From an uncultured Paraprevotella sp. (GTDB lineage Bacteria > Bacteroidota > Bacteroidia > Bacteroidales > Bacteroidaceae), in NCBI GenBank assembly GCA_944321975.1, contig CALUNJ010000006.1, forward strand, positions 1 to 49,048: a stretch of 49,048 nt of DNA. The letters are read 5' to 3'. Position 1 is the first letter of the stretch. Each line of letters opens with the position of its first letter. The position numbers were made by a program, and so were the translations under genes. Under the pieces are notes generated by a model that did not search any database, had not been told where the DNA came from, and was given only the letters and a program-made list of their open reading frames with translations. Positions 150-47,010 of the stretch are shown piece after piece.

Positions 150-385
150 ACGGCCAGGCGGGGGAAAAGACAGCGTGGCGGAACAGGACAAAACCGGTCT
201 CAAGAGGAACACCAATTTCCTTCAGGCGATTCACATTTTTTTTGCTTGAGAAAAAAATGTGAATCGCCTGAAGAAAAACTGCGTCTTTCAAAAATTTCTT
301 GTCCGGTTGATTATCAATGAAATAAGTTTTCCCCTCCCCAACAGGGGCATAGGCCGGGGAATGGAATTTGCGGAAAGGAACAGGG
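150..385 (-). repeat. 22-bp phased intergenic repeat, copy 1 (reverse orientation)
   Basis: Non-coding element downstream of the PAP2 pseudogene. Five 8-bp sites begin at 199 (CTCAAGAG), 221 (TTCAGGCG), 243 (TGCTTGAG), 265 (CGCCTGAA) and 287 (TTCAAAAA), exactly 22 bp apart. Spacers 229-242 (ATTCACATTTTTTT) and 251-264 (AAAAAAATGTGAAT) are reverse complements, so 221-242 pairs perfectly with 251-272 (22 bp stem, 8-nt loop). One arm holds GGACAAAACCGG (186-197); the other holds GATTATCAATGAAATAAG (309-326), shared with copies 2 and 5. Boundaries are approximate. The rest of 1-397 has no gene that I can support; small ORFs here are repeat-derived. Confidence 0.85.
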
Positions 386-397
386 GGTGGTTTAGGT

Positions 398-1370
398 CTA
401 CCGGTTTGGAACGGCTTTCTGGAAAATCCATTGGCTGAGCCTGTAAACGGGGTAGGCTGTGAGCACACCGGCTATGGCATCCACCAGGTAATGCGCCTGG
501 ATATAGACCGTGGCCATGGCCAGCAGGACGGAGAACGGCAACAGGATGTAGAACAGTCGCCGGCTTTGCGGATAGACCATTAGCAACAGAATGAGCGTGA
601 TGCCGATGTGGGAGGAAGGAAAGGCGGCCGTGGGACTCTTCCCCCATCTCCTGGGCTTGCTCCACGAGACGGTGGAAGAGTCCTGCGGGATTGCCCGGTG
701 AGGGGAGCATGTCCGTATGCAGGTTGAAATAGGTGCCCAAGGGCGGGTACTGTCCGGTTGCGATGAGGTCGGGCGAAACGGCCCAAAAATAGAATTGGGG
801 GCCGGCTACCAGCAACACCAAATAGACAAGGTAGTAGAGGAAGAAGGAACACAGCACGACGAAAGAGGCTTTTTCGTAGGACTTGTTACGGTAAAGGAAA
901 AAGAAGACCATGACCGTGACAATCATCGGATAGTAGGAAAAGTAGCCCATGTGGACCGCTTCGCTGAACCACGGCCACGGGCATGAGCGGTGGAACTCCA
1001 TGGCCGGCTAGCAGCCGAAAAGAAACGCGTCGCAACGGGCGAAAAAGTGGTCCAAGTTGGGCAACGTGCTGTTGAACTCATAGGTGTCGGGGTACCAATA
1101 GCATAACAGGCTCATTTGCGCGGTGATGCGGACAAACGTCATCCACCTGCAAGGCCATAGCGTGTAAATCCCCCATACCAGGAGCGTGGCGGCCAAGATG
1201 TATGCCCGGTCGGCCAGCATGCCCAGAGGGTGGTCCATCTGTGGCCATAGCACACCTAAATACAATGACGTGATGCCACTGTAGGACACAGCCAGCCACT
1301 CGATGGGCCAAAGCCCGCGCGGCATGCCGTCGTTGGCCGCGAGCCATTGGAGCCGGGAGGCTACAGCCAT
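398..1370 (-). pseudogene. PAP2 / Aur1-like membrane phosphatase, disrupted by a stop and a frameshift
   Basis: The reading frame encodes a multi-spanning membrane phosphatase of the PAP2 superfamily (inositolphosphotransferase/Aur1-like branch), which would act on lipid or prenyl phosphates at the membrane. The first part (1370-1011) ends at an in-frame TAG (1008-1010) in the context FGC-stop-PAMEFHRSCPWPWF; a single C-to-T change from CAG would explain it. The same frame then runs to about 630, where the frame must shift by one base to recover the catalytic motif PTAAFPSSHIG and then VYIQAHYLVDAIAG, ending at 398. The shift lies in TCCCACGG; one lost C restores the motif. It is last in a run with the CDF and epimerase genes and its ATG overlaps the epimerase stop. 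The alternative is sequencing or assembly error, but two independent lesions favour real decay. Confidence 0.8.
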
Positions 1371-2398
1371 CCTTCCTTTTGATACCATGCGACGGTTTCT
1401 TTCACGCCGCGGTCCAGCGGATATTCCGGGTGGTAGCCCAGTTCGTCGATGGCCGGTGTGATGTCACATTGCCAATTGCGCTGACAAAGGATGTGGAACT
1501 TGTCGAGGTTCAGAGTGGCTGTCTTGCCGCGCCATTGGGCGATGCGGTCGCTTGCGGCGCACACGATGCGGAGAAACCACACGGGGGCTTTGATGCGCAC
1601 CATGAAGGGGTGCCCCAAGGCTTTGCGGATCAGGTCGCTGAATTCTGTGCTGTGGTAAATCCCGCCGTCGCTGATGAAAAATTCACGGCGTGCCACGTCT
1701 TTGTCCATGGCGGCATAGACGGCCTGCACGAGGTCTTTCACATACACGAAGGTGATTTCCTGCGGTTTGTAGCCGACGCAGAAGTCCACGTGCTGCCTGA
1801 TGCTTTGTGCCATGACGAAGTAGTCTTTCTCGCGTGGCCCGTACACTCCGGTAGGGCGGAGGATGACGTAGGGGAAATCGGGCAATGACTTGAGGTAGCG
1901 TTCGGCTTGCAGCTTGCTTTCCCCGTAGGCCGTGTTGGGGCGCGGCGTGTCGCCCTCTTGGATGGGGGCGTAAGTCCAGGGATGGCCGGGAGCGGCTTTC
2001 CGGACGGGTTGTTCGCGTATGGCTCCATAAACGCTGAGCGAGCTGATAAAGATGAAACGTCGCGGCACCATCTTTAATTCCCTGAGCGCGTCTGCGAAAT
2101 TTCGCGTCCCCTTGTAGTTGGCATCGAAGAAGCCTTCGCGCCGGAGGCATTTCGTGGCGCCGGCTGCATGGACCACGATGTCCCATCCCCCACATTCGGC
2201 TTTGCAGGCAGCCAGTTGCGCTTTCAAGGTTTCGGGGTGTGCGAGATCCAGTTCTGCGAATCTGATGTTCGGGTCGGTCAGATATTGTTTGCTGCTGGTG
2301 CTCCGCATGCCGGCCCAGACCTCATGTCCCCGTCTCAGGCCTTCTTCCACGATGAAACTTCCGATGAAGCCGCTGGCTCCTGTGACTAATATCTTCAT
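1361..2398 (-). CDS. NAD(P)-dependent epimerase/dehydratase (extended SDR family)
   Basis: 345 aa cytoplasmic protein of the extended short-chain dehydrogenase/reductase family. The N-terminus MKILVTGASGFIGS has the Rossmann GxxGxxG dinucleotide-binding motif, followed by the acidic strand-2 end (ELDLAHPE), and the catalytic set is visible: Ser in SSLSVYG (about residue 119) and the YxxxK motif in TAYGESK (about residues 158-163). The C-terminal half holds the substrate domain (RPTGVYGPREKDYF, a typical SDR segment). Family members act on nucleotide sugars or on steroid/flavonoid-like substrates; the sequence does not fix the substrate. It lies 32 nt after the CDF gene and overlaps the decayed PAP2 gene, so the three were probably co-transcribed. 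Start chosen at the ATG directly before the Rossmann strand. Confidence 0.88.
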   Translation of the reverse strand: MKILVTGASGFIGSFIVEEGLRRGHEVWAGMRSTSSKQYLTDPNIRFAELDLAHPETLKAQLAACKAECGGWDIVVHAAGATKCLRREGFFDANYKGTRNFADALRELKMVPRRFIFISSLSVYGAIREQPVRKAAPGHPWTYAPIQEGDTPRPNTAYGESKLQAERYLKSLPDFPYVILRPTGVYGPREKDYFVMAQSIRQHVDFCVGYKPQEITFVYVKDLVQAVYAAMDKDVARREFFISDGGIYHSTEFSDLIRKALGHPFMVRIKAPVWFLRIVCAASDRIAQWRGKTATLNLDKFHILCQRNWQCDITPAIDELGYHPEYPLDRGVKETVAWYQKEGWL

Positions 2399-8483: not shown

Positions 8484-10361
8484 ATGAATCTGTTTGATTA
8501 TCAGCGCAGGCCGACTGTTGAAGTTCAGATTGGCGGCACGCCGTTGGGGGGGAAGAACCCGATAAGGTTGCAGAGCATGACGAACACGTCCACGTTGGAC
8601 ACCCAAGGGAGCGTGGCGCAGACCTTGCGCATTGCTGCCGCGGGCGGGGAATATGTCCGGCTGACGACCCAAGGGGTGCGCGAGGCCGAGAATCTCCGTG
8701 CGATTAACGCCGGAGTGCGGGCTGCGGGCTGCGACGTGCCTTTGGTGGCCGATGTGCATTTCAATCCGCAAGTGGCCGAAGTGGCTGCGCTTTATGCCGA
8801 GAAAGTGCGCATCAATCCGGGAAATTATGTGGATGCCGCGCGCACGTTCAAACATGTGGAGTACACGGATGAAGAATATGCCCGGGAATTGGAGAAAATC
8901 GCGGCGCGTTTTGTGCCTTTCCTGCAGATTTGCCGGGAACATCACACTGCCATCCGCATCGGGGTGAACCATGGTTCGCTTTCTGACCGCATCATGAGCC
9001 GTTACGGCGACACGCCGGAAGGCATTGTGGAGAGTTGCATGGAGTTCTTGCGCATCTGCGTCCGCGAACATTTCATGGACGTGGTGGTGTCTGTCAAGGC
9101 CAGCAACACGGTGGTGATGGTGCAGAGCGTGCGGCTTTTGGTCCATGCGATGGAGCAGGAGGGCATGGCTTTCCCCCTTCATTTGGGCGTGACGGAGGCT
9201 GGCGACGGCGAGGACGGCCGGATCAAGAGTGCCGTGGGGATCGGCGCGTTGCTGGCCGACGGCATCGGCGACACGGTGCGCGTGTCATTGAGCGAGGCCC
9301 CGGAGGCGGAGATTCCCGTGGCGCGCAAGTTGGTGGATCATGTGTCCCGCCGCGAAGGGGCGATGATGATTCCCGGCATGGCGGCTGAAGGTTTTGACTG
9401 GCTGCGTCCCGTGCGGCGCCACACGGTGGCCGTGCGCAATATCGGGGGAGGTCAGGCGCCGGTCGTGGTGGCCGACCGCATGGACCTGTCGGCTTCCGGC
9501 CGCTTGAAGGGTTTCAGCGCGCATCCCGATTTCCAGCCCGATTATATTTATTGCGGGCGCGACTTGCCGCCGGCCGGCGAGCGTGAGCCAGCGGCATATA
9601 TTGTGGACGCCGATGTGTGGACCGGGGAACCGGGCACTTATCCGGCTTTCCCCTACAACTTGTTGCCCTTTTTAGGCTCTTGTGCGGCAGACCTGAAATT
9701 CCTTTTCCTCACTTATGGGGCATTGGACGAAGAGGTGCGCGCCTGTCTCAGGCATCATCCCGAAGTGGTGGTGGTTTCGCAGAGCAATCACCAGAACCGT
9801 TTGGGAGAGCACCGGGCGTTGATTCACGAGCTGACCCGCGAGGGGCTGGCCAATCCTGTGGTCGTGTTCCAACAGTATGCCCACAGCATGGAGGAGAAGG
9901 AAGATTTCCAAATCGAAAGCGCGGCCGACATGGGGGCATTGTTGTTTGACGGCCTGTGCGACGGCCTTTATCTGTATAATAGCGGGACGCTTGGCCATCG
10001 TGACATTGACGCCACGGCTTTCGGCATTCTTCAGGCTGCGCGTTTGCGCACCTCGAAGACGGAATACATCTCCTGCCCCGGTTGCGGGCGGACGCTTTAC
10101 GACTTGCAGGCCACCATTGCCCGTGTCAAGGCGGCTACCGGCCATCTGAAGGGGCTGAAGATAGCCGTCATGGGCTGCATTGTCAACGGGCCGGGCGAGA
10201 TGGCCGATGCCGATTACGGCTACGTCGGCGCGGCGCGGGGCAAAGTGAGCCTTTACAAGAAGAAGACTTGCGTGGAGCGCAACATCCCGGCCGAAGAGGC
10301 TGTCGAGAAGTTGCTTCGCCTGATCCGGGAGAACGGCGACGACCCGGAATATTCAGTTTAG
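8484..10361 (+). CDS. ispG: 4-hydroxy-3-methylbut-2-enyl diphosphate synthase (long form)
   Basis: 625 aa IspG (GcpE), the [4Fe-4S] enzyme that reduces MEcPP to HMBPP in the MEP isoprenoid pathway. The N-terminal TIM barrel begins at about residue 15 (VQIGGTPLGGKNPIRLQSM). About 250 extra residues sit between the barrel and the C-terminal iron-sulfur domain, the long three-domain form known from Bacteroidota, Chlamydiae and plants, against about 370 aa in E. coli. Cluster ligands are visible in SCPGCGRTLYD (about 530) and CIVNGPGEMADADYGYVG (about 565), including the Glu of NGPGE. It lies between purE (12 nt) and cysS (18 nt) in one transcription unit. Start is the ATG with the closest spacing to purE. 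Confidence 0.95.
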   Translation: MNLFDYQRRPTVEVQIGGTPLGGKNPIRLQSMTNTSTLDTQGSVAQTLRIAAAGGEYVRLTTQGVREAENLRAINAGVRAAGCDVPLVADVHFNPQVAEVAALYAEKVRINPGNYVDAARTFKHVEYTDEEYARELEKIAARFVPFLQICREHHTAIRIGVNHGSLSDRIMSRYGDTPEGIVESCMEFLRICVREHFMDVVVSVKASNTVVMVQSVRLLVHAMEQEGMAFPLHLGVTEAGDGEDGRIKSAVGIGALLADGIGDTVRVSLSEAPEAEIPVARKLVDHVSRREGAMMIPGMAAEGFDWLRPVRRHTVAVRNIGGGQAPVVVADRMDLSASGRLKGFSAHPDFQPDYIYCGRDLPPAGEREPAAYIVDADVWTGEPGTYPAFPYNLLPFLGSCAADLKFLFLTYGALDEEVRACLRHHPEVVVVSQSNHQNRLGEHRALIHELTREGLANPVVVFQQYAHSMEEKEDFQIESAADMGALLFDGLCDGLYLYNSGTLGHRDIDATAFGILQAARLRTSKTEYISCPGCGRTLYDLQATIARVKAATGHLKGLKIAVMGCIVNGPGEMADADYGYVGAARGKVSLYKKKTCVERNIPAEEAVEKLLRLIRENGDDPEYSV

Positions 10362-10379: not shown

Positions 10380-11867
10380 ATGGAACAGAAACTCTTTATT
10401 TACAATACACTTTCCCGCAAGAAGGAAGAGTTTAAACCCATCACGCCGGGGCGTGTCGGGATGTACGTGTGTGGCCCCACCGTGTATGGCGACGCCCATT
10501 TGGGGCATGCCCGTCCGGCCATCACTTTCGACTTGTTGTTCCGCTATTTGCAGCATGTGGGCTACAAGGTGCGTTACGTGCGCAACATAACGGATGTGGG
10601 CCACTTGGAACACGACGCAGACGAGGGCGAGGACAAGATCGCCAAGAAAGCCCGGCTGGAGCAACTGGAGCCGATGGAGGTGGCACAGTATTACACCAAC
10701 CGTTTCCATGCGGCCATGCAGGCACTCAACGTGCTGCCGCCCAGCATCGAGCCTTGCGCTTCCGGGCATATCATCGAGCAGATCGAGCTGGTGAAGCAGA
10801 TCCTGGCGAACGGATTTGCCTACGAGAGCCAGGGGAGTGTGTATTTCGACGTGGAAAAATATAACCAGCAATACCACTATGGCAAACTGTCTGGCCGTAA
10901 CCTGGAGGACGTGATCAACAATTCCCGAGAATTGGACGGCGTGGGGGAGAAGCGCAACCAGGTGGATTTCGCCTTGTGGAAGAGGGCGCAGCCTGAACAC
11001 ATCATGCGCTGGCCCAGTCCGTGGAGCGACGGCTTTCCCGGGTGGCACTGCGAATGCACGGCCATGGGGCGCAAGTATCTGGGCCAGCATTTCGACATCC
11101 ACGGCGGAGGCATGGACCTCATCTTCCCGCATCATGAATGTGAGATCGCACAGGCGGTGGCCAGCCAGGGCAGCGACATGGTGAACTATTGGATGCACAA
11201 CAACATGATCACCATCAACGGCCAGAAGATGGGCAAGAGCTTGGGTAATTTCATTACTCTGGCGCAGTTCTTCACCGGCAGCCACGAAAGCCTGGCGCAG
11301 GCTTACAGTCCCATGACCATACGTTTCTTCATCCTCCAGGCGCACTACCGCAGCACGGTGGATTTCAGCAACGAGGCTTTGCAGGCCAGCGAGAAGGGCT
11401 TGGCACGGCTGATGGAGGGCGTGGCCAACCTGAAGCGAATTGTGCCAGTGGAGGGAGACGGCAGCGTGGGGATGGCCTATGTGGACGAACTCCGCGCCAA
11501 ATGTTATGAGGCGATGAACGACGACTTGAACTCGCCTGTGGTCATCAGCCATTTGTTTGAGGCCTGCAGGGTGGTCAACTCGGTGCTGGACAAGAAAGCC
11601 ACCGTCAGCCAGGCGGTGTCGGAGGCTCTTTCCGACGTGTTCCACACCTTCGCGTTTGATATCCTCGGCCTTAAAGAGGAGGCTGGCAACGAGGGGGCGC
11701 GTGAGGAAGCCTTCGGCAAGGTGGTCGACATGTTGCTGGAGCAGCGCATGAAAGCCAAGGCCAACAAAGATTGGGCCACGAGCGACATGATTCGCGACAG
11801 CCTGGCAGCCTTGGGCTTCGAGGTGAAGGACACCAAGGACGGTTTCGCCTGGAAACTGAACCGATAG
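10380..11867 (+). CDS. cysS: cysteinyl-tRNA synthetase
   Basis: 495 aa class Ia synthetase charging tRNA-Cys. The HIGH signature is HLGH (about residue 40, in [15 protein letters not shown]), and KMSKS appears as KMGKS (about 283). Zinc ligands are seen as CGPTVYG (Cys near 31), WHCECTAMG and HHECE. The C-terminal helical anticodon domain ends in [13 protein letters not shown]. It is the last gene of the rpoN run; after its stop comes a 655-bp non-coding region with repeat copy 2 and then convergent pyrH. Length and all motifs are normal for the family. Confidence 0.97.
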
Positions 11868-11929
11868 GCATCTTGGCCCGCCTGGAAACCAGGGGGAGGG
11901 AGGGGGCGGCAGGAAATGCGTGGAGATAG

Positions 11930-12215
11930 CCATGGTGCTTGGCGATTCTTGAAACAGGCGGATTTTCTGCTGCCCTCTTTTTCATGGATAGGAAGTGCGT
12001 GGCGGAATAGGACAAAACCGCTCTCTTGAGTCACGCAAATTTCCCTCAGGCGATTCACATTTTTTTCTCAAGCAAAAAAAATGTGAATCGCTTGAGAAAA
12101 ATCCACATGCTTCAAGAGATTTTTACTTTTTTGATTATTAATAGGATAAGATTTTCCTTCAAAATAGGACCATATAGGCTTTGGAATAGGTCTTGCGGAA
12201 AGGAAAGGGGAGCGA
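11930..12215 (-). repeat. 22-bp phased intergenic repeat, copy 2 (reverse orientation)
   Basis: Lies between the convergent cysS and pyrH genes. Five 8-bp sites begin at 12023 (CTCTTGAG), 12045 (CTCAGGCG), 12067 (CTCAAGCA), 12089 (CGCTTGAG) and 12111 (TTCAAGAG), all 22 bp apart. Spacers 12053-12066 and 12075-12088 are the same two sequences as in copy 1, but the site between them (CTCAAGCA) is the exact reverse complement of copy 1's TGCTTGAG. One arm has AATAGGACAAAACCG (12006-12020), the other GATTATTAATAGGATAAG and ATAGGACCATATAGG. The rest of 11868-12522 holds no gene I can support; 12216-12522 has only GC-rich inverted repeats (e.g. GAGGGAGG ... CCTCCCTC near 12437-12468 and CCGCGGCCGCGG near 12500) which may end pyrH or cysS transcripts. 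Confidence 0.88.
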
Positions 12216-12522
12216 TGAGGCCCGGGCCGGACGGGTGCCGATCCTTCTTCTTGGAAAGGAGCGGTCTTGAAAGAAGCCTTTATGTGGAAGCCTTTTTTAA
12301 GTGTCTTGCCACAGGAGGACGGAGTTTTCCCGGGCTGGCCTGCGCGGGGATGAGAACGGCTGCCCGTTTCTTGGTGCGGGATAAGGAAGGCGCATCTTCC
12401 CACGGGGGTTCAGCCGCTCCGGAATAAGACGGAACCGAGGGAGGGGCATGGCTTGGCGCCTCCCTCCCTCCCTCGTGGTGGTTCATGCCTTCCTTTTGCC
12501 GCGGCCGCGGGGGGATGTTTGC

Positions 12523-13233
12523 TCAGTTGTGTACCAATGTGCCGATATTTTCCCCTTCCATCACCTTTTTCAGGTTGCCATAGACATCCATGTTGAACAC
12601 ATAGATGGGAAGGTTGTTTTCCTTGCACATCGTGGTGGCGGTGAGATCCATCACCTTTAATCCGCGGTTGTAGATTTCATCATACGTGATTTCATTGAAT
12701 TTTGTGGCGGTGGGGTCTTTTTCGGGGTCGGCGGTGTAGACTCCGTCCACGCGGGTGCCCTTCAACATCACGTCGGCTTCGATTTCAATGCCGCGCAGCG
12801 AGGAGCCGGTGTCTGTGGTGAAGTAAGGATTCCCCGTGCCGCCGCTCATGATGACCACTTCGCCGGCTTCCATGCATTCGATGGCTTTCCATTTGCTGTA
12901 GAACTCGCCGATGGGTTCCATGCGGATGGCTGTCAGCACGCGGCTCTTCACTCCGATGGCGCCTAATGCGCTGCTCAGGCCGAGGGAGTTGATGACGGTG
13001 GCACACATGCCCATTTGGTCGCCTTTCACACGGTCGAAGCCTTTTCCGGCTCCGGTCAGTCCGCGGAAGATGTTGCCTCCGCCGATGACGATGCCGATCT
13101 GCACGCCCATGTCGTGGACTTCTTTGATTTGTTGGGCATATTCACCCAGACGTTTTTCGTCGATGCCGTAGCGTTGTTCTCCCATGAGGCTCTCGCCACT
13201 CAGTTTGAGGAGGATGCGTTTGAATTTAGCCAT
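12523..13233 (-). CDS. pyrH: UMP kinase
   Basis: 236 aa bacterial UMP kinase (amino-acid kinase fold), phosphorylating UMP to UDP with ATP; hexameric and usually feedback-inhibited by UTP. Motifs in order: MAKFKRILLKLSGES (phosphate loop, K and SGE), IGIVIGGGNIFRG (residues about 46-58), GVKSRVLTAIRM, and MSGGTGNPYFTTDT (about 129-142) for the nucleotide. The C-terminal DLTATTMCKENNLPIYVFNM is typical. It begins 14 nt after birA and is the third gene of the yraN-birA-pyrH operon, with no promoter-like box in the gap. All key residues are present and the length is normal. Confidence 0.96.
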   Translation of the reverse strand: MAKFKRILLKLSGESLMGEQRYGIDEKRLGEYAQQIKEVHDMGVQIGIVIGGGNIFRGLTGAGKGFDRVKGDQMGMCATVINSLGLSSALGAIGVKSRVLTAIRMEPIGEFYSKWKAIECMEAGEVVIMSGGTGNPYFTTDTGSSLRGIEIEADVMLKGTRVDGVYTADPEKDPTATKFNEITYDEIYNRGLKVMDLTATTMCKENNLPIYVFNMDVYGNLKKVMEGENIGTLVHN

Positions 13234-21939: not shown

Positions 21940-22085
21940 AAAGGCGCGGGGAGGCGGGGGATTTCCGGTTCGCTTGAGTCATATTTTTCTTTCGCTTGAG
22001 AAAAAATAATTTCTCGCTTGAGAAAAAAATGTGAATCGCTTGAGAGAAATCCCTGTATTTCAGGGACTGTTTATTCCTTCTGGAA
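21940..22085 (-). repeat. 22-bp phased intergenic repeat, copy 3 (reverse orientation, direct-repeat form)
   Basis: Between the trxA unit terminator and convergent dusB. Four identical CGCTTGAG sites begin at 21971, 21993, 22015 and 22037, each exactly 22 bp apart, and a fifth, diverged site (TTCAGGGA) at 22059 keeps the phase. The spacers differ: TCATATTTTTCTTT, AAAAAATAATTTCT and AAAAAAATGTGAAT. Since all four sites point the same way and only one spacer is the standard one, no long hairpin forms. The arms are poorly conserved relative to copies 1, 2, 4 and 5. The remaining part of 21831-22258 shows no gene; GGCGGAATCCGCC (22221-22233) and GCGGGGA/TCCCCGC (22236-22253) are short hairpins downstream of dusB. 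Confidence 0.85.
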
Positions 22086-30835: not shown

Positions 30836-30837
30836 GC

Positions 30838-38053: not shown

Positions 38054-39004
38054 ATGGAAGCGAATGTTTCTGGCATGCTATCCGCGATATTTGTCAAAGC
38101 CGAGGCGCGACGCCTCGGCTTTTCTGCTTGCGGGCTGGCTCCGGCCGGCCCCGTGGATCCCGCCCACGTCGCCTTCTTCAGGGACTGGCTCGCGCGGGGG
38201 TGCCAGGCGGGCATGGCTTATCTGGAGCGTCACGGCGACCTGCGCGCCGATCCGCGCCGGCTCATGGACGGTTGCCGCACGGTGGTCAGCGTGGCGCTGA
38301 ACTACCGCCCTGCGGAATCTGCACCGGACGGATGCCTGCAGCTGTCCTGGTATGCTTATGGGAAGGACTATCATGACGTGGTGCGCGCCAAGCTCCAGTC
38401 CCTGCTTTCCGCCTTGCAGGCCGTCTGTCCGGCCTTGCGCGGGCGTGCCTGTTGCGACACGGCACCCGTGCTCGAACGCTATTGGGCCTGGCGGTGTGGC
38501 GTGGGCTGGCTGGGCCGCCACACCCAGGTGGTCGTGCCCCGTGCGGGCAGCGCGTTTTTTCTCGGCGAACTTCTTCTCGATGTCCCGGCCGACCGCTACG
38601 ATGTGCCTCCGCGCGAGGGCTGCGGCAGTTGCATGCGCTGTGTGGAGTCCTGTCCCACCCATGCCCTTTCGGGGCAGGGATTGGATGCCCGCCGCTGCTT
38701 GAGTTACCTGACCATTGAGCATAAGGGGGAGATACCGGAGGAGGCTGCCGCGAAAATGTTTCCCTATTTCTATGGCTGCGACCGTTGCTTGCGTGCCTGT
38801 CCGCACTTGCGCTTCGCCCCGCCCGCCGCTGAACCCGCTTTTTCGCCCCTTCCGGGGATTTTGGCCCTGTCGGAGGAAGATTGGTTGCGCCTGGATGTGG
38901 AACAATATCGGCAACTTTTCCGGGGGTCGGCCGTGAAACGGGCCAAATATGAAGGGTTGAAGCGCAACCTGGAGGCGATTCGCAAAAGCCGTGAACCGCG
39001 TTGA
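38054..39004 (+). CDS. queG: epoxyqueuosine reductase
   Basis: 316 aa. It reduces epoxyqueuosine to queuosine in tRNA, using cobalamin and two [4Fe-4S] clusters. Ferredoxin-type ligands are CGSCMRCVESCPTHAL (about 192-208) and CDRCLRACPHLR (about 242-253). The DUF1730 N-terminal region carries MAYLERHGDLRADPRRLMDG and SVALNYRP. Length is a little shorter than E. coli QueG (379 aa), lacking the C-terminal HEAT repeat region, which is common in Bacteroidota. It is 20 nt after the deacetylase and ends the plus-strand unit. The convergent phosphoesterase gene follows after a 491-bp gap with repeat copy 4. Confidence 0.93.
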   Translation: MEANVSGMLSAIFVKAEARRLGFSACGLAPAGPVDPAHVAFFRDWLARGCQAGMAYLERHGDLRADPRRLMDGCRTVVSVALNYRPAESAPDGCLQLSWYAYGKDYHDVVRAKLQSLLSALQAVCPALRGRACCDTAPVLERYWAWRCGVGWLGRHTQVVVPRAGSAFFLGELLLDVPADRYDVPPREGCGSCMRCVESCPTHALSGQGLDARRCLSYLTIEHKGEIPEEAAAKMFPYFYGCDRCLRACPHLRFAPPAAEPAFSPLPGILALSEEDWLRLDVEQYRQLFRGSAVKRAKYEGLKRNLEAIRKSREPR

Positions 39005-39109
39005 GGCGGGTTTGTGTCCCGCTGGCTTGTTTGGGCTTCCGGGGGGGCTCGTACTTGTGGGTGCGGGCAAGGTCGCGCAGTGCCAGGGGTGTCCCGGCAG
39101 TCTTTTCCT

Positions 39110-39385
39110 GAGAATATATTGCCCTGTCTTGAAGAAAGAATTTATTTTGTTAATACCCAGTAAAATAAGTGGTGCCTCTTGAGCCCCTTGGATTTTTCTC
39201 AAGCGATTCACATTTTTTTCTCAAGAGATTCACATTTTTTTCTCAAGAGAGAATCTTGCGTTTCTCTTGAGAGTGGATTTGTGTTGTTCTGCCCAGTGCT
39301 TTTTTCCCGTAGCGAGGCGTAGAAATGCCTCCCCTCCTCGGCATCGCCAAGATGTAGGGCTATCGCCACTCCGTTCGGACTTCCT
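39110..39385 (+). repeat. 22-bp phased intergenic repeat, copy 4 (forward orientation)
   Basis: Between convergent queG and the phosphoesterase. Sites at 39176 (CTCTTGAG), 39198 (CTCAAGCG), 39220 (CTCAAGAG), 39242 (CTCAAGAG) and 39264 (CTCTTGAG), all 22 bp apart. Spacers 2 and 3 (39206-39219 and 39228-39241) are both ATTCACATTTTTTT in direct order, so the long hairpin of copies 1 and 2 cannot form. The left arm has GTTAATACCCAGTAAAATAAG-like sequence; the right arm has GAGGC-GTAGAAAT-GCCTC, a small hairpin with loop GTAGAAA, and GGCATCGCC. Boundaries are approximate. The rest of 39005-39495 holds the strong hairpin at 39419-39462 and no gene. Confidence 0.88.
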
Positions 39386-39418
39386 GGTTTTCTCTGCGCT
39401 CCAATCCCGGAAAACGAG

Positions 39419-39462
39419 GCGGGGCGCAGCCTGTTTGCCGATGGGAACAGGCTGCGCCCCGC
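39419..39462. terminator. perfect 17-bp hairpin between convergent genes, likely terminator
   Basis: GCGGGGCGCAGCCTGTT (39419-39435) pairs perfectly with AACAGGCTGCGCCCCGC (39446-39462), loop of 10 nt. It lies between queG and the phosphoesterase stop. On the minus strand CTCGTTTTCC follows, a weak U-tract, so it most likely ends the phosphoesterase transcript and could act in both directions. Confidence 0.65.
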
Positions 39463-39495
39463 GCAATGGACAGTCCGATGTGCGAGCGTGTGTGT

Positions 39496-40431
39496 TTATT
39501 TTGTGCGTTTGATGGTGTGGACCACCTTGCCGTTTTTGTCCATCATGTGCAGGTCCAGTTCCTTCTGGCCCACCGTGATGAGCGAGAAGCCCGTGGCGGA
39601 GCTGCAGAACACCGTGCCGTCGGTGGGTTTCACTTCGCGGCTGAGCGAGCCCGAGGTGTTGACCACATAGTCGATGCCGCATCCCGGCTTGCGGATGTGC
39701 TGGAAGTTGTGGATATGCCCGCAGAGGTACATGTCCACGTTCTTGTGGCGGCGCAGGATGGTGTCCACGTTCTTCTGCATGTCCGTGCGTTCCGATTCGC
39801 TTTTGTCCGTGTCGGCATAGATGGGATGGTGTCCCACGACGAGCACCCAGTCTTCCTTGGCCGAGGTCAGCACGGAGTCGAGCCACGTGAGCTGTTTTTG
39901 CCAGTCCTGCTTGCAGGCATCAGGATATTTTTCCGTGTCCTTGCGGTATTTTCCGAGCAGGGGCGGTGTGTCGATCATGACGAGGCGCAGCGTGGTGCCG
40001 TCTTCTTCCATCACCTTGGTGTAGTAGCGTGCGGGCACGTTCCAGCGTGCGCTCACCTGGGTGTAGTCCACCACGGCCTGCGTGTTGCCGCGGTATTCGT
40101 GGTTGCCGCAGATGGCGTACCAGGGCAGCATGAGGTCGGGATGGCTGTAGATCAGCTCGTAGTTGGTCATCCAGAGCGGGTCGGCGGTGCTGCGCACGCC
40201 TTCGAAGTGGTGCACGTCGCCGGCGGCCACGACGAACTCGATGTCGATGGCTTCGGCCATGCGTCCCATGGTCTCGGCGATGGGTTTCTGGTCGTAATAG
40301 CCGTTGCGGCCCAGGTCGTTGCAGAGATAGAAGTTCAGGGGCTTCTCAAGGGCTTTCCAGGTGGCGGCGTCTTGCGCCGGAGCGAGGACAGCGGACAAGG
40401 CCAGCGTCAGGCTCAGAAATAAATTCTTCAT
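39496..40431 (-). CDS. secreted metallophosphoesterase (purple acid phosphatase-like)
   Basis: 311 aa. A signal peptide (MKNLFLSLTLALSAVLAPAQ) precedes a calcineurin-like phosphoesterase. Metal motifs in order: NDLGRNGYYDQ, AGDVHHFEG (GD), CGNHEYRG (GNHE), VVGHHPIYAD (GHHP) and LCGHIHNFQ (GHxH). The order and sizes recall tartrate-resistant/purple acid phosphatases. It would release phosphate from esters in the periplasm. The start at 40431 is chosen for its signal peptide; the longer frame (40521) adds 30 residues without one. It is 108 nt after the beta-helix lipoprotein gene and may be in the same unit as the TonB receptor. Confidence 0.9.
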   Translation of the reverse strand: MKNLFLSLTLALSAVLAPAQDAATWKALEKPLNFYLCNDLGRNGYYDQKPIAETMGRMAEAIDIEFVVAAGDVHHFEGVRSTADPLWMTNYELIYSHPDLMLPWYAICGNHEYRGNTQAVVDYTQVSARWNVPARYYTKVMEEDGTTLRLVMIDTPPLLGKYRKDTEKYPDACKQDWQKQLTWLDSVLTSAKEDWVLVVGHHPIYADTDKSESERTDMQKNVDTILRRHKNVDMYLCGHIHNFQHIRKPGCGIDYVVNTSGSLSREVKPTDGTVFCSSATGFSLITVGQKELDLHMMDKNGKVVHTIKRTK

Positions 40432-40539
40432 AAGTGTTACGTTTGGTTGTTTTGAAAACCCCGCTTCCCATAGGGCTGTTGTGCGGCTCGCAGAGAAGCG
40501 GGAAATGAATGTTTGTTTCACTCGTTTTTGGGGGAGGGA

Positions 40540-42030
40540 TTAGTTGGCGGCGTAGCGGCCGAACCAAGCGCCCACGGCGGGCGAGTTGTAGGTCTTTCCG
40601 CCCACGCTCAGGCCATTGGCGGCGAAGTGGGGCTGTGCGAACGAAGCGTTGCCGCTATATGCTCCCTGCAGGTTCACGGTCGGCGTGAAATCCCAGTTGT
40701 CATTGTAAATCACGTTGCTCGTCTTGTTGCCGTCGAGGTCGTAGTTGCGGAACTGCGGGTTGTAGAATTCCGTGCCGTCGGCAATCAGGCTATGGCTGTC
40801 CACAGCCGGTACGGTGACTGTGACTTTGGTCCCGTCTTCCAATTCCATTTGTGCTTCGCTGGGCGCCATGTGGTAGTCCTCGTGGTCATAGGTGTAGCCC
40901 TGCCAAGCGAAATGGATGCCTTGGCCTTCGACAATTTCGCCGTCGTCTTCCCACTCGGCAATGTAGAGGTCGGTTTCCGTGGTGGCCGATACATAGCAGT
41001 TGTAGTCAATAGTGGACTGGTAGGCAAATCCGCCGTCCGTGTTGTTCGGGTCGTCCCAGCTCGGCACTTGTGCGCGGTATTTGCAGTTGACCATCATGTT
41101 GTTGAACACGTTGGCCAGCACGTTTTCTTCTACATAGATGCTGCCTCCCTTTTCGCCGTCGCGGCGCCAGCCTGCGTTGATGATGGTGTTGTTGTAGGCC
41201 GTTACTTCAGCCTGGTAGCGTGAGCCGCCTTGGCCGCCGCTGGAGAGCTTCAGGCCGTTGGTGTTGGGCGAGTACATGGTGTTGTAGGCCACGTCCACAT
41301 GGCATCCCGATTTCACGTTCACGGCTTCTTCGCCGTCGTAGCCGTTGCCGGCGAAGATGTTATTGGCGATGATGCCGCGTCCGCCCATCATGTAAATGCC
41401 GTCGGATTGCCCGTAGCGGATCACGCTGTTGGTGATGACGTAGCGTCCGTTCGGGTTGTTGGTCGTGATTTGCGGGTAGATGTCGTCTCCAGCCTCGTAG
41501 TAGCCTGCGGATGCGGCCGGAGAACCTTGTATCACTTCGCCGCCGGTGTATTCGATGACGACATGGTCGATGAGCATTTCCTCGCAGGATTCATAGGCCA
41601 CGATGCCGCCCCATTGGTGTTCGGCGTTGTGGATGTTGGCCGTGGTGCGCTCCTCTTCCGGGATGGTCATCAGGATGGGCTTTTCGGCTGTGCCTTGGCA
41701 GTAGAGGTTGCCTTTCACTTCAAATTCCACGGGGACGCGGTTTGTGCCTACCCCGTCCGTGGTGAATATGATGGTTACCCCTTCTTCGATGGTCAGGCTG
41801 GAGTCTTCGGGCACGATGATGTGGCCGGTCACTCCGACTACGCTGCCCGCAGCCCATGTGCCGGACACGTTGCCGGACACGGTAAAGGTAGCCCCTTCGG
41901 TGGCATCGCCTTTCGTTTCGTCATCCTCGTTTTCGATGGGTGCCGTTTCTTCGTCATCGTCACACGCGGTGGTGGACATTCCCAGTGTTGCCAGCATGGC
42001 AACGGCATACAAATAATGTTTGAAATTCAT
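40540..42030 (-). CDS. surface lipoprotein with parallel beta-helix repeats
   Basis: 496 aa. Lipobox at MSTTAC (C23) followed by DDDEE, the acidic signal that in Bacteroidota sends lipoproteins to the cell surface. After an acidic linker (about 25-50), the main part holds repeated short strands typical of a right-handed beta-helix (for example GRYVITNSVIRYGQSDGIYMMGGRGIIANNIFAGNG, quoted in part as VITNSVIRYGQSDGIYM and IIANNIFAGNG; then VDVAYNTMYSPNTNGLKLSS). No catalytic motif of a known lyase is obvious. Directly downstream of the TonB receptor (49 nt), so it probably works with it as a substrate-binding or -cleaving partner, filling the place that SusD holds in other systems; no SusD gene is present. 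Confidence 0.82.
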   Translation of the reverse strand: MNFKHYLYAVAMLATLGMSTTACDDDEETAPIENEDDETKGDATEGATFTVSGNVSGTWAAGSVVGVTGHIIVPEDSSLTIEEGVTIIFTTDGVGTNRVPVEFEVKGNLYCQGTAEKPILMTIPEEERTTANIHNAEHQWGGIVAYESCEEMLIDHVVIEYTGGEVIQGSPAASAGYYEAGDDIYPQITTNNPNGRYVITNSVIRYGQSDGIYMMGGRGIIANNIFAGNGYDGEEAVNVKSGCHVDVAYNTMYSPNTNGLKLSSGGQGGSRYQAEVTAYNNTIINAGWRRDGEKGGSIYVEENVLANVFNNMMVNCKYRAQVPSWDDPNNTDGGFAYQSTIDYNCYVSATTETDLYIAEWEDDGEIVEGQGIHFAWQGYTYDHEDYHMAPSEAQMELEDGTKVTVTVPAVDSHSLIADGTEFYNPQFRNYDLDGNKTSNVIYNDNWDFTPTVNLQGAYSGNASFAQPHFAANGLSVGGKTYNSPAVGAWFGRYAAN

Positions 42031-42079
42031 AAAATAAGAATTTAAATGTGTAATAATATTGAGTTTCCGGTTTCTTGCT

Positions 42080-44716
42080 TCAGAGCTTATAGCGCAGGCC
42101 GATCATGAACGTGCGTCCGTTCCACGATTCGCGTTCCACCACGTTGCCGTTGTCGCGGCGTGAGGTGACGTTCATTGTGTGGTTGCCCTTGTGGATATAG
42201 CGTAAGATGGGCGTGTCGATCAGGTTGGACGCCTTGGCAAAGACCGTCAGGCCGAATTTGAATCCTTTTTCCAGGGAGGCGTCGAGTTGGAAAAAGCCTT
42301 TTTCCCAAATGTCATCGTCTTCCCACGTGGAGATGTCGGCGAGCCGTTTTCCCGTGTAGGTTCCCAGGACTTGTCCTTCCCAGGCATGTTTCTTGCTCTT
42401 GAAGAGGAGCGAGAGGTTGGCCACGTGGGCTGCTTGTCCGAAGAGCGGGCGGGTCTGTTCCACCATGACCACCTCGTTGCCCGCCATCTTTTGCTTTTGA
42501 GTGGTGATGGACGAATGCGTGTAGGTGTAGTTGGCCTTCACGCCGAACCAATTGAAGTATTTCATGAGATCCACTTCCACGCCAAAGTTGGTGGCTGTGC
42601 CGAAGTTCATGGGTTTGTATGTGAGGTCTTGCCCTTCGGTCATCAGTCCGTATTCGATGGGATCCTGGATGTTCTTGTAGAACACGCCCACCATGAATTG
42701 CTCGCTCGTGCGGGGGAAGAACTCGTAGCGCAAGTCGAGGTTGTCGGCCACGGTGTGTTGCAACTCGGGATTTCCTTCTTCGCTGTAATCGTCTCCCACG
42801 AGGCTGTAGGGCACGATTTCGAAGAAGCTGGGGCGGTTCACGGCGCGATAGTAGGAAAAGTGCAGGTTGGCATTCTCATGCACGTGGTATTTCAAATGTG
42901 CGCTGGGCAGCCAGTCCCAATATTTTTGTGAGCCTTCGGGGTCGGAGTTGTCTTCGGCGAACTTTAGCGTATAGCCTTGGTCGGTGTGTTCGGCGCGCAA
43001 CCCCGCGTTGAATTCCCACGACGGGCGGGTGTACTTGACCATGAGATAGGCGGCACCGATGCGTTCAGAGGCGTCGTAGTTGAGCGGGTCGGCAATGTTG
43101 CCGTAGCGGCGGCGCGGGGTGAACGCTATGTCGTCGAAGTTTTCCCAATCGTAGCCGGTTTCGGAGTTGAACGTGTAGCTGTTGTAGAAACTTTCGCGTT
43201 GCTTGTCGCGGTAGAGTCCGCCCACTTTGAAGTCCATGGATTGCCCCCCGTTCATTTTCATCTTGTAGGCCAGGTTGGCTTGAGCCGAAAGGTCGCGGTC
43301 GGAGTTGTGCTCCCAACGGCGTTCCGCGCTGTTTTGTGAATAGACCCGGCGTCCGTTGAACTCCATTTTCACTTGGTCGGGCGTTTCGTTGTAGGCTTTT
43401 GACCCGTTGAGTCCCCAGTCCAGCATCAAGGCACCGTCCTTCAGGAACTTGTGTTCGCCTTTGAGGGTGGAGTTGAAAATATATTGGTGATTCCATTTCA
43501 GGCGCACTTCGCGATCCATCTCGTCGGCTCCGTCGCGCACTTCGCCTTCGCGCAGATCCATGTAGCCGTTATACCACGTCAGTTTGTGGGCTTCGTTCAC
43601 GTGGTAGTCCAGCTTCAGGTGCGCTCCCGTGCGGGTTTGTCGCACGGAGTAGTTGCGGTGCAGGGTGCCGTGCTGGGATTCTCCCGGTTTGTATTCAATG
43701 TCGCTTTCGCGTCCCCGGTTGGTGTTTTGGAAACTTCCGGCGAGCATGACCCCCAAATGTCCGTCGAAGAAACGGTCGCCATAGGAGAGTCCGGCTGTGA
43801 GGTCGGGCATGGCCGCTTTCTCTGTCACATGGAGTGGGGCGCGGTTGAAATATTCGCTCTGCATCACGCTTCCTGTTCCTGTGGTGCCGAGGCGTTCATC
43901 GGGCGATTCTTTATTGATCTTGTCCCAGGCAAACGACTGGAAGTCGCGGCCGAAGAACATGCTGTTGTAACCCGTGGAAATGTTGGCCGTGAACTGGCGT
44001 TCCGTGGGCGCGTCTTTCATCACGAGGTTTACGGCTCCGCCGATGCCGTCGCCTTCCATGTCGGCGGTGAGCGATTTGGCCACTTCCAGGCGGTCGAGCA
44101 TTTCGCTGGGGAAGATGTCGAGCGGCACGAAACGGTTTTTATTGTCGGGGCTGGAGATTTTCACGCCGTTCACGAGCGTGTAGTTGTAACGCTTGTCCAT
44201 GCCGCGCAGGATGGCGTATTGCCCCTCTCCGCTGGCATTGCGCTCTACGGTGACCCCGCTCATGCGTTGGATGACGTTGGCCACGGTGATGTCCGGCGAC
44301 AGTTCGATGGCCTTGGCGCTCATGACGTTCACCACGCTCATGGCGTTTTTCTCGATGAGCCGTGCGCCTGCTTCGCTGCGGCCTGGATTGTGCGCCGTGA
44401 CGGTCACGCCTTTCAGTTCGATTTCTTTGCTGACGAGGGGGATTTCGATGTTTTCATTTTCTGAACGCACTTCCACTTCGAAAGGCTGGTAGCCCATGTA
44501 AGTGCAGACTAATGTGAATGCGTTCTGTCCTACGGAGAGGTTGAAACTTCCGTCCAGTCCGCTGACAACGGCTTTCGAGGGGTCGCCTTTCACTTGGATC
44601 CGGGCACCGATGATTTCCTCTCCGGTCTGCGCGTCGCGGATTTTGCCTTTGATAATCTTGCCTTCGGCCTGCAGGGCGAGCATGCCGCAGACAAGCAATG
44701 GCCAACATCTTTTCAT
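42080..44716 (-). CDS. TonB-dependent outer-membrane receptor with CarboxypepD_reg-like domain
   Basis: 878 aa. A signal peptide (MKRCWPLLVCGMLALQAEG) is followed by a carboxypeptidase-regulatory-like domain (KGKIRDAQTGEEIIGARIQVKGD to YMGYQPFEVEV, about 22-90), the plug domain (VIQRMSGVTVERNASGEGQYAILRGMDKRYNYTLVNGV, quoted in short as QRMSGVTVERNASGEG, about 150-190), and a 22-strand-type barrel ending in aromatic RTFMIGLRYKL. It imports a ligand across the outer membrane with TonB energy. SusC-family proteins usually come with SusD; here the partner is the beta-helix lipoprotein. The promoter is 40 bp upstream. The ligand is unknown; the phosphoesterase downstream makes a phosphorylated compound plausible. 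Confidence 0.93.
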   Translation of the reverse strand: MKRCWPLLVCGMLALQAEGKIIKGKIRDAQTGEEIIGARIQVKGDPSKAVVSGLDGSFNLSVGQNAFTLVCTYMGYQPFEVEVRSENENIEIPLVSKEIELKGVTVTAHNPGRSEAGARLIEKNAMSVVNVMSAKAIELSPDITVANVIQRMSGVTVERNASGEGQYAILRGMDKRYNYTLVNGVKISSPDNKNRFVPLDIFPSEMLDRLEVAKSLTADMEGDGIGGAVNLVMKDAPTERQFTANISTGYNSMFFGRDFQSFAWDKINKESPDERLGTTGTGSVMQSEYFNRAPLHVTEKAAMPDLTAGLSYGDRFFDGHLGVMLAGSFQNTNRGRESDIEYKPGESQHGTLHRNYSVRQTRTGAHLKLDYHVNEAHKLTWYNGYMDLREGEVRDGADEMDREVRLKWNHQYIFNSTLKGEHKFLKDGALMLDWGLNGSKAYNETPDQVKMEFNGRRVYSQNSAERRWEHNSDRDLSAQANLAYKMKMNGGQSMDFKVGGLYRDKQRESFYNSYTFNSETGYDWENFDDIAFTPRRRYGNIADPLNYDASERIGAAYLMVKYTRPSWEFNAGLRAEHTDQGYTLKFAEDNSDPEGSQKYWDWLPSAHLKYHVHENANLHFSYYRAVNRPSFFEIVPYSLVGDDYSEEGNPELQHTVADNLDLRYEFFPRTSEQFMVGVFYKNIQDPIEYGLMTEGQDLTYKPMNFGTATNFGVEVDLMKYFNWFGVKANYTYTHSSITTQKQKMAGNEVVMVEQTRPLFGQAAHVANLSLLFKSKKHAWEGQVLGTYTGKRLADISTWEDDDIWEKGFFQLDASLEKGFKFGLTVFAKASNLIDTPILRYIHKGNHTMNVTSRRDNGNVVERESWNGRTFMIGLRYKL

Positions 44717-44757
44717 AAATTAAAACTTATACCTTTACCTTGTTCTGAATTCTGCCG

Positions 44758-44765
44758 CAAAGGTA
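44758..44765 (-). promoter_or_regulatory. -7 element for the TonB receptor unit
   Basis: Minus-strand TACCTTTG fits TAnnTTTG, 41 bp before the receptor ATG. The rest of 44717-44984 has no gene; it holds this promoter and the terminator of the DUF3843-like gene. Confidence 0.65.
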
Positions 44766-44903
44766 TGCTGGCGGTGTTACGTTGGCATTACGCAGGAATG
44801 AAAAATTAATGAACTTTGTTAAAAGGGTGTTTGGAAGGCCGGAAATCCAAGATGTCTCCAGAATTGGGGTTACGGCACGGGTGGAATGGTGCCCGTGCGG
44901 GGA

Positions 44904-44984: not shown

Positions 44985-46520
44985 TCATGGCGTAGTGAAA
45001 GCATCTTCGTCATAGTCCTTTTCCCGGCATTTGCGGAAGAAATAGTCCGTGATGAAGTTACGATTCTGTTGCAAAAAAGATCGGCCGTATTCTTTTCCTT
45101 TCAAACTATTCAGGCCCGCGTCGGTGAGCATGCCCTTGTCTTGGAGGTAACAACACAGTTCGTAGGGGAGTGCTTCGGGGTTGGCATAGAGCATTAGCCC
45201 GTTCTTTCTGGCTTTCTGTTCATCGTAGAAAGGATTCTCGGGCGATTTGATGCAGGGTATTCCCGCATTGAGGATTTGCATCCCGGCATTTGGGGTGGCT
45301 GTGGCCATGCATCCTGTTTTTTCATCCACCCGTGGGATTTCCACGCCTTTTTCCAAGGTGAATCCCATTTTTGCCGTGAGGAAGTCTTTCAGTGCGTCTT
45401 GGCTTTTGAGGATGACGTAAGGCCGTCCTCCGGACGCTTTCCGGAAAGTTTCGAAATCCCGGCGTGTGGTGGCCTTTTCGCGCCTGTCTCTTTCCTCGTC
45501 TAAGATGAGCCGGTCGTCTCCCTGCTGTTCGTTGCTATATGTCAGCATGCCGTTTTGCCACCAGCAGCCCCCGTAGGCGACCAGTTGGCATTTTAACATG
45601 CTTTTGCCAGCAATCCAATGGTTGCCGCCGACTTCGCTTTTTATAGAGAGTTTGCTGACCGCCAGTCTTTCTCCGTTGCCCGTGATATCTTTGAGATAGA
45701 CGAATCGCAGGTCTTCTCCGTCGTATAGGAAATAAAAGCCCGGATGCAGCCGGACATCTTTCCATGTGGCCAGTCCGGGGAGGTCGCCGGCCATCCGCGC
45801 CATCCATTCCGGCGAGCTGAAGGCCATAAGCGGGTTCCGGCTGCGGAACAACAGTTCTTGCCGGATGGCATATATCAGGATGTACGGGTCGTGGTTTTCT
45901 ATGAAGTCGTTTATGTTCTTGTGCTCGGCCAATTGTTCGATGTGGTCTTCCAATTCGTCCTGGGCCAGCACGTTGAAATAGGATTGGTAGTGAAACCACT
46001 GGAGGATCTCGCGGTAACGATAGAAATCTTCCGGGCCATAGGATTGCCCGTATAATGCTTCATACAGCGGTTCGTTTTCGGGAGCGGTTTCGTATTCCTG
46101 TTCAAGCAAGGTGCAGACCTGGCTTGCTACGGCCTGGATGCCAGGGTTTTCCGGATTGAGCACCCGCTCGCCGTTGCAGTAGCTTTGCATGTTGTGCCAA
46201 AGCAGGAAAGCGATGTCTTCGAAGTTCACTTCTCCCGGAATGTAATTTTCATCCAGTTTGTAGAAAGGCAGATAGGCTCCATATCGTTGCTTGCACGCCT
46301 TGGTAAAGGTCGTCCAGATGCGTGTTTCCGAGATGATGTCTTCGAACCATTCCGTGAGGCGGATGCCGATGCTGCGCAGGTCAAAGAGGTCGTCTTCCAA
46401 GTGGGCTGCTGTTAGAACCTTGTTGATTCGCGTGGCTAAGTCGGCATAGTAGCGGTCGGCTTCTCCGCTGTGTTTGTAGGGATGTTGTGTGACCCATTCG
46501 ACCGGATATACTTTTTTCAT
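44985..46520 (-). CDS. DUF3843-like cytoplasmic protein of unknown function
   Basis: 511 aa, no signal peptide or membrane segment, acidic and aromatic-rich. The N-terminus (MKKVYPVEWVTQHPYKHSGEADRYYADLATRINKVL) looks like the DUF3843 family of Bacteroidales; I give the family name from memory, so it is tentative. A middle segment (LHPGFYFLYDGEDLRFVYLKDITGN) has the shape of a beta domain. No catalytic motif is recognised. The gene is monocistronic: it has its own terminator downstream, and upstream lies a 626-bp gap with repeat copy 5. An imperfect -7 box (TACTTTTA) is seen about 20 bp before the ATG. Confidence 0.78.
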   Translation of the reverse strand: MKKVYPVEWVTQHPYKHSGEADRYYADLATRINKVLTAAHLEDDLFDLRSIGIRLTEWFEDIISETRIWTTFTKACKQRYGAYLPFYKLDENYIPGEVNFEDIAFLLWHNMQSYCNGERVLNPENPGIQAVASQVCTLLEQEYETAPENEPLYEALYGQSYGPEDFYRYREILQWFHYQSYFNVLAQDELEDHIEQLAEHKNINDFIENHDPYILIYAIRQELLFRSRNPLMAFSSPEWMARMAGDLPGLATWKDVRLHPGFYFLYDGEDLRFVYLKDITGNGERLAVSKLSIKSEVGGNHWIAGKSMLKCQLVAYGGCWWQNGMLTYSNEQQGDDRLILDEERDRREKATTRRDFETFRKASGGRPYVILKSQDALKDFLTAKMGFTLEKGVEIPRVDEKTGCMATATPNAGMQILNAGIPCIKSPENPFYDEQKARKNGLMLYANPEALPYELCCYLQDKGMLTDAGLNSLKGKEYGRSFLQQNRNFITDYFFRKCREKDYDEDAFTTP

Positions 46521-46759
46521 TGCTGGTAACTTTTACAGGAGTAAAAGTAGGACTTTTGCGGTGAATGTGCAATATCTGAATGTCTTTTCTTTATGCCAAT
46601 GGCGTGGAAATGTTTCTTTTGTGGTTTTGCTTTTTCCAATGGTCTTATTTCCAACGGAGGTTGCCCAGGCCGGGGCTTTCTGGGGCAGCCCTTGCCGGAA
46701 CCCACGCGGACCTTCCCTTTCCGCGCCCTTTTCCCTTCCGTAAGCCCCATCTCCGAAGT

Positions 46760-47010
46760 CCATATGGTCCTATCTTGAAGGGGAGCCTTATTCTGTTAAT
46801 AATCAGCAAAATGAAAACAACTTTGGATCACACGGATTTCTTTCAAGCGATTCACTTTTTTTTCGCTTGAGAAAAAAATGTGAATCTCAAGAGAGAAATT
46901 TGCGTGCCTCTTGAGCGCGATTTTGTCCTATTCCTCCGCGTGTTCTTTTTCTTCACGAGGCGGTAGAAACGCCTTCCGCTTCTGGCATCGCAAACTTTCA
47001 GGCTATCCCC
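46760..47010 (+). repeat. 22-bp phased intergenic repeat, copy 5 (forward orientation)
   Basis: Between the DUF3843-like gene start and the end of the next minus-strand gene. Sites at 46842 (TTCAAGCG), 46864 (CGCTTGAG), 46886 (CTCAAGAG) and 46908 (CTCTTGAG), 22 bp apart; the expected first site at 46820 is degenerate (ACTTTGGA). Spacer 2 is ATTCACTTTTTTTT and spacer 3 AAAAAAATGTGAAT, forming a hairpin with one mismatch. The left arm has CATATGGTCCTATCTTGAAG (46771-46790) and TTCTGTTAATAATCAG, matching the reverse complement of copy 2; the right arm has ATTTTGTCCTATTCC and the hairpin AGGCG-GTAGAAA-CGCCT. The rest of 46521-47146 has no gene, only the terminator at 47076-47124. Confidence 0.88.

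Follow-up and report, generated by a model that had tools for sequence, protein, structure and literature searches.

The stretch analysed here (the window) comprises 49,048 nucleotides of contig CALUNJ010000006.1 from an uncultured Paraprevotella sp. (assembly GCA_944321975.1; its genome, 86% complete, is called G000). It contains five intergenic arrays of 8-bp sites with 14-bp spacers and a fixed 22-bp step. The original prediction of these five copies, including the degenerate site at 46820, is confirmed at every position, and the phenomenon is larger in scale than was supposed. The family is recognised by its step, the symmetry of its sites, their flipping in place, its copy number, its avoidance of divergent gaps and the recurrence of the same phase with other sequences in congeneric species, all of which are observed directly. 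The explanation we tentatively favour, with somewhat less than even confidence, is that a putative dimeric DNA-binding protein occupies the arrays as phased sites at the ends of transcription units, and that the arrays have spread as interspersed elements.

Step specificity and copy number

Copies were counted in 641,348 bp of G000, in stretches chosen around matches of a spacer+site pattern, which biases their density upward. A scan for five sites in phase gives 73 copies at a score of at least 9 (in this list the register is off by one unit for some of them, including copy 5 of the window), none in one shuffled copy of these stretches and no array in 149,401 bp from congeners. At a score of at least 11, 71 arrays are found at step 22 and none at steps 17–21 and 23–28; when three sites with at most one mismatch each are required, steps 16–29 yield 63 arrays, all of them at step 22. 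The search of G000 for copies off the claimed step therefore returned none, and a chance origin is excluded by the step specificity, in G000 and in congeners, together with the shuffles. The spacer+site pattern has 314 matches genome-wide in G000; since the sampled stretches with their 73 copies contain 121 of these, we estimate about 190 copies in the whole genome, in line with the many copies that had been predicted.

The same spacing with other sequences in congeneric species

The 17 other genomes of the genus are called G001–G017. About 200 kb were sampled from each of six (G001, G002, G007, G009, G012 and G016). In these samples and in G000 and G017, gaps of at least 120 bp in which an exact, not low-complexity 8-mer is repeated were counted for each lag from 9 to 60 and set against 50 shuffles. 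The top lag is 22 in G000, G001, G002, G007 and G009, 44 followed by 22 in G012, 21 in G017, and 46 tied with 23 in G016. Lag 22 is seen in 39 of 182 gaps in G000 (shuffle mean 1.2), 13 of 54 in G007 (0.3), 12 of 54 in G002 (0.3), 8 of 47 in G001 (0.3), 6 of 48 in G009 (0.4; another lag gives 5) and 4 of 53 in G012 (0.2); lag 21 is seen in 17 of 224 gaps in G017 (1.6) and lag 23 in 4 of 41 in G016 (0.3). Taken singly, the evidence from G009, G012 and G016 is weak.

Scans for three sites in phase at steps 16–29 give 10 arrays in G002, at step 22 only, and 13 in G017, at step 21 only. With a longer site and a looser threshold, both picked after the arrays were seen, 13 arrays are found in G007, six in G001, four in G012 and one in G009, all at step 22; the strict-site counts are zero at every step for G001, G007 and G009, and one for G012.

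Concerning the sites themselves, G001 and G007 have the common site CTTTGCGGCAAG with different spacers. G002 carries TTGCGCAA at the 22-bp step and its 14-bp spacers vary between arrays: the information content is 1.51 bits/bp in the sites vs 0.39 in the spacers (53 sites, 13 arrays). The most repeated intergenic 14-mers of G017 belong to families other than those of G000, and one of these families has its own array, with CCGAGCCCCG sites in both directions, A/T-rich spacers and a step of 21. The array site of G009 is ACTTGGGCAAGT, those of G012 are TCTGCGGCAAACGA and TCGGCTGAGATTGA, and in G016 the units are 23 bp long and look more like an ordinary minisatellite. Ten further congeners (G003–G006, G008, G010, G011, G013–G015; 5–10 kb stretches, lags 20, 22 and 23 only) show no clear array, with single lag-22 word pairs in G013 and G015. 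Whereas intergenic repeats of high copy number tend to be defined by their sequence, what these arrays have in common is a spacing, 21–23 bp in eight congeneric species with mostly different sites (G001 and G007 share one). These comparisons suggest that spacing, not sequence, is what matters in the arrays.

Other repeats are present in the same genomes. G017 (L151–L190) has a second high-copy intergenic family around CCTACAAGGCGGAG (24 copies in 800 kb, e.g. L159 8166 and L162 10527, reverse-complement positions) and a third around TGCGAGGCGGGACA (12 copies). In G009, L072 1137–1380 is a direct 22–23 bp minisatellite (GGCCTGAAACACCCAGTTCCAAA) whose step moves between 22 and 23 inside one array.

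Anatomy of the arrays

Written with the GGCGGAATAGGACAAAA arm first, the common form consists of the left arm, CTCAAGAG, gaatgcaaatttcc, CTCAAGCG, attcacattttttt, CTCAAGCA, aaaaaaatgtgaat, CGCTTGAG, aaaaatccgcgtgt, TTCAAGAC and the right arm. When the 73 arrays are extended in phase, 35 have four sites, 32 have five, five have three and one has six. The G000 site is a near-palindrome, CKCWWGMG, which flips in place. Across 314 sites, which were selected by likeness to four templates (the alignment columns of arm-bearing copies agree), position 3 is C in a fraction of 0.99, position 6 is G in 0.98, position 1 is C in 0.81 and position 8 is G in 0.84, and the centre is AA in 155 and TT in 117. 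The palindrome C.C..G.G is constant under the flip; the variable positions are chiefly 2, 7 and the central two (AA or TT). Because the site is in effect a palindrome, its direction is irrelevant to a symmetric reader and can flip without loss.

In most cases an inner spacer of G000 is ATTCACATTTTTTT or the reverse complement of it, and two neighbouring ones tend to form an inverted pair: of 51 adjacent pairs, 40 are F.R, 9 R.R and 2 F.F, so that 11 are direct. Within an inverted pair the middle site has one direction 24 times and the opposite 16 times. Based on the step scans and these counts, the fixed phase with variable site direction proposed at the outset is borne out in G000; the spacers, which had been described as variable, are not free, given the predominance of one inner sequence.

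With the array masked, 38 of the 73 copies form one similarity group (L068 9515 belongs to it only via its neighbour's arms, at 9294); in the other 35 no similarity is detected beyond the array, which is therefore the common part. The shared arms of the grouped copies cover about 300–400 bp; relative to the array start, BLAST among arm-bearing copies places their left boundary at about -110, and their right boundary is ragged, falling between about +190 and +300. Common descent, claimed from the arms, thus stands for the 38 grouped copies (four of the five in the window) and has no such basis in the other 35, including the copy at 21971.

In the window, copy 1 (199–294, plus strand) is a five-site, arm-bearing array with a model region at 175–334 and an R1 match at 176–332; its left arm (GTGGCGGAACAGGACAAAACCGGT) lies at 175–198, plus strand. 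Copy 2 (12023–12118, plus strand) has five sites in a convergent gap, family likeness over about 11993–12240 and an R1 match at 12000–12157. Its right arm, with GATTATTAA, lies at 12119–12158 on the plus strand, and there, as in other canonical copies, the arm looks by eye like a small inverted repeat (TTATTTTGTT...AACAAAATAA), with paired changes in some copies. Copy 3 (21971–22066, no strand assigned) has five sites in a convergent gap and is without shared arms. Copy 4 (39176–39271, minus strand) also has five sites in a convergent gap, with both inner spacers in the same direction. Copy 5 (46820–46915, minus strand), which begins with the degenerate site, is arm-bearing and lies in a tandem gap, with an R1 match at 46782–46937 on the minus strand.

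The gene order around copies 2 and 4 (11863–12523 and 39004–39496 of the window) is unlike that of congeners: what comes after the gene ending at 11860 is 39496–44804 in G001 and, in inverted orientation, 14455–12523 in G017 and G009. The window has a GC content of 55.7% and encodes a DUF3843 protein and a bifunctional IspG type, all of which we take to be pointers to the Bacteroidales.

Genomic placement

Genes were called with a purpose-made simple caller (hexamer scores). In total, 66 of the 73 copies are placed between two called genes; of the seven unplaced ones, all but L044 1019 are about 300 bp or less from the end of a stretch. The G000 gaps with a copy are convergent (23), tandem (37) or divergent (5). 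A copy is present in 17 of 17 convergent gaps of at least 400 bp and in 30 of 33 tandem gaps of at least 500 bp; divergent gaps contain one in 0 of 34 cases at 150–599 bp and in 5 of 6 at 600 bp or more. These fractions are upper values because the stretches were selected for copies; the contrast among gap types comes from the same stretches. In six other species, arrays are found in 24 of 69 convergent, 33 of 284 tandem and 8 of 127 divergent gaps (convergent vs divergent, p=8e-7). Among the arm-bearing copies in tandem gaps, a small sample, 10 of 12 are oriented against the genes.

Distribution within the genus and orthologous gaps

The exact G000 family appears, by sequence searches, nearly confined to one species. 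Its spacer+site pattern has no match in 14 of the 17 other genomes, one in G012 (with one mismatch), one in G009 and three in G017; those of G009 and G017 are short arrays without arms. A sequence-only model scores all 29 G000 candidates (E down to 2.8e-39) and gives marginal matches in 5 of 100 other genomes of the family (best E 4.7e-4).

For all four copies with both flanks collinear in G017, the G000 gap measures 379–555 bp vs 12–28 bp in G017, a difference which is unpolarised and may reflect gain or loss. Broken G017 adjacency or a matchless neighbour is found at 15 of 18 scorable G000 copies, vs 17 of 39 array-free gaps of at least 120 bp (p=0.009); this association is suggestive only, because transcription-unit ends also tolerate breaks. 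Array-bearing gaps are longer than the collinear gaps of other species by a median of 188 bp (39 comparisons), and array-free gaps compared across species differ by a median of 4.5 bp (92 comparisons); a gap may enter more than one comparison, and the other side is the longer in some of them. As read from the sequences, some orthologous gaps contain each species' own kind of array in G000 and G012 and in G000 and G001, and one convergent orthologous gap contains G001-, G002- and G007-type arrays. Such gaps are either favoured targets, or the arrays in them have been rewritten in place.

A putative dimeric protein and the alternatives

An array bound by a dimeric protein is the best explanation because phase, site symmetry and position recur and the site sequence does not. 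The element would then be an array of about 3–6 binding sites for a putative sequence-specific, symmetric (dimeric) DNA-binding protein. Since the sites are 21–23 bp apart, or two helical turns, bound dimers would be aligned on one face of the DNA. The palindromes read by the dimer would be CKCWWGMG in G000 and TTGCGCAA, CTTTGCGGCAAG and CCGAGCCCCG in congeners. We infer both the protein and its role, which may be to form a boundary, whether insulating, blocking or topological, between transcription units. Part of the G000 copies may have spread within interspersed elements of about 300–400 bp inserted in intergenic DNA, and the phase is probably preserved because sites and spacers are rewritten in place by hairpin-templated copying. 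If a protein does bind the arrays, chromosomes or transcription units would have a layer of organisation that has so far gone unrecognised, and the change of site from one species to the next would be a natural experiment on how a DNA-binding protein coevolves with some 200 sites.

Several observations weigh against a protein array. No protein that binds the arrays is known or was found. The site sequences have diverged within the genus, which is fast for a host protein, and in G009 (one array) and G012 (two arrays) the sites are no better conserved than the spacers. Divergent gaps with arrays exist, five in G000 and eight in other species. As RNA, the six single copies tested fold well (z -9.2 to -1.6), and in four of four species tested the spacers fold better than versions of themselves shuffled at the same positions (mean z -1.5 to -3.0), for which a pure protein array has no need; template switching in quasi-palindromes could be a source of both the flips and this complementarity without selection.

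A wider form of the proposal, possible though somewhat doubtful, is that the whole genus keeps one geometry, with near-palindromic sites every two helical turns at the ends of transcription units, but that the sequence recognised is exchanged from one species to the next, orthologous gaps being rewritten from the site of one species to that of another. A fast-evolving boundary or chromosome-architecture protein would then track its own sites, by a logic comparable to the turnover of satellites and centromere proteins.

Fairly unlikely, in our judgement, is that the arrays are by-products of slippage and palindrome-templated repair, without host function, inside non-autonomous mobile elements with an internal minisatellite, each species having been colonised by another element. 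The precedent is BrickBuilt, a miniature inverted-repeat transposable element (MITE) of Porphyromonas gingivalis: PMC4596501 describes 23-nt direct tandem repeats (1 to 22.8 units) between a leader and a tail, 19 intergenic copies, IS5-like terminal inverted repeats, and some copies with only part of leader and tail. Both families are intergenic, interspersed and species-restricted, with a repeat array of about two turns per unit between conserved flanks that are absent in some copies; the arrays studied here differ in their 22-bp step, mostly 4–5 units, flipping sites, lack of visible terminal repeats and about 190 copies (estimate). The arms shared by 38 of 73 copies, the lengths at the four collinear G017 sites and the likeness of the G009 and G016 arrays to ordinary minisatellites also fit a mobile element. 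However, a slippage product need not hold the same step across eight species with mostly different sequences, G002 conserves sites but not spacers, and no terminal inverted repeat or target duplication is seen, on reading, at the ragged ends or at the four collinear empty sites of G017. Even if the arrays are only mobile elements, searching by phase and not by sequence could reveal such families in other genomes.

The array may also be selected as an inverted repeat in the manner of repetitive extragenic palindromic (REP) sequences, acting either at the 3' ends of transcripts, where the RNA would be a stabiliser or terminator, or as a cruciform in the DNA, which we consider unlikely. The inverted inner spacers agree with it, as does placement: like REPs and bacterial interspersed mosaic elements (BIMEs), as these are usually described, the G000 copies are extragenic, numerous and found at gene 3' ends in preference to divergent gaps. 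A hairpin or cruciform role is conceivable because single copies fold well and their spacers surpass shuffled ones; on the other hand, RNAalifold on 29 copies gives no consensus pairs, 11 of 51 adjacent spacer pairs are direct, and an exact 22-bp step is not needed for hairpins. The sense strand is the more stable in 27 of 43 tandem gaps (p=0.34), that is, no strand preference is seen. Intrinsic-terminator-like signals occur at 13 of 83 gene ends in array gaps vs 15 of 85 in non-array gaps of G000, and given this near-equality we reject arrays as replacements of intrinsic terminators. Rfam at gathering scores has no match in the window, and we reject both a named RNA family and, from the RNAalifold result, a consensus RNA fold. 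The prediction of a DNA-level function in place of an RNA fold is thus upheld in part: the missing consensus fold and the same design with other sequences in congeners, which favours a phase-dependent function at the DNA level, support it, and the folding of single copies and spacers speaks against it.

REPs, BIMEs and REP doublets forming hairpins (REPINs) resemble the arrays as high-copy extragenic palindromic repeats with sites in both directions at gene 3' ends. The arrays differ from them in the fixed 22-bp step of 8-bp sites and in two further respects. A GTAG or CGTC tag beside the palindrome is reportedly a feature of REPs and REPINs, and none is present in the core consensus of 29 copies (consensus reading only). 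REP-associated tyrosine transposases (RAYTs) are the other: the Y1 transposase domain (PF01797) has no match in G000 at its 86% completeness and is found in one of the 18 genus genomes (G009, E 2.9e-7), with the control detected in 5 of 14 known genomes. RAYT-driven REPs are excluded by this absence from G000 and 17 of the 18.

Helically phased DNA shape at transcription-unit ends, with sequence otherwise free, as in BIME-2-like topoisomerase (gyrase) sites, is very unlikely to explain the arrays, although their placement fits. According to PMC6379681, the Escherichia coli gyrase motif has a phased 10-bp G/C variation, and cleavage sites are overrepresented in BIME-2 and downstream of operons with high transcription. 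The arrays of G000, G001 and G017 do alternate GC-rich sites with AT-rich spacers; those of G002 (spacer GC 0.3–0.8 by position) and G007 (mixed spacers) lack this alternation, yet their sites are conserved in sequence.

Iterons of plasmid origins are direct repeats of about 20–22 bp, helically phased and bound by protein. The arrays share this phasing; they differ as near-palindromes dispersed over the chromosome, without similar plasmid or phage records.

Occurrence beyond the genus

No sequence similar to copy 2 is found in plasmid and phage records, and an exact 22-mer has no match in IMG/VR; a plasmid, phage or viral origin is rejected on this similarity evidence. Literature searches, whose scope did not extend to subscription journals and preprints, found no published account of the phased-array design. 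A search of 84,980 genomes for four CKCWWGMG sites at 22-bp steps gives 51 stretches, of which 22 are on contigs taken as Bacteroidales by title (one genome accounts for five contigs). Many resemble ordinary 22-bp minisatellites, among the matches listed, and the pattern itself selects the sites. Outside the matched arrays of the Bacteroidales loci, 5 windows are found at lag 22 vs 4, 2, 2 and 1 at lags 19, 20, 23 and 25; because lag 22 is not clearly enriched there, the design is claimed for the genus only. Two genomes titled Parabacteroides contain 22-bp arrays (L126 416–489, L123 7755–7828 and L144 3111–3184) in which, as in the arrays of this genus, sites flip or spacers vary.

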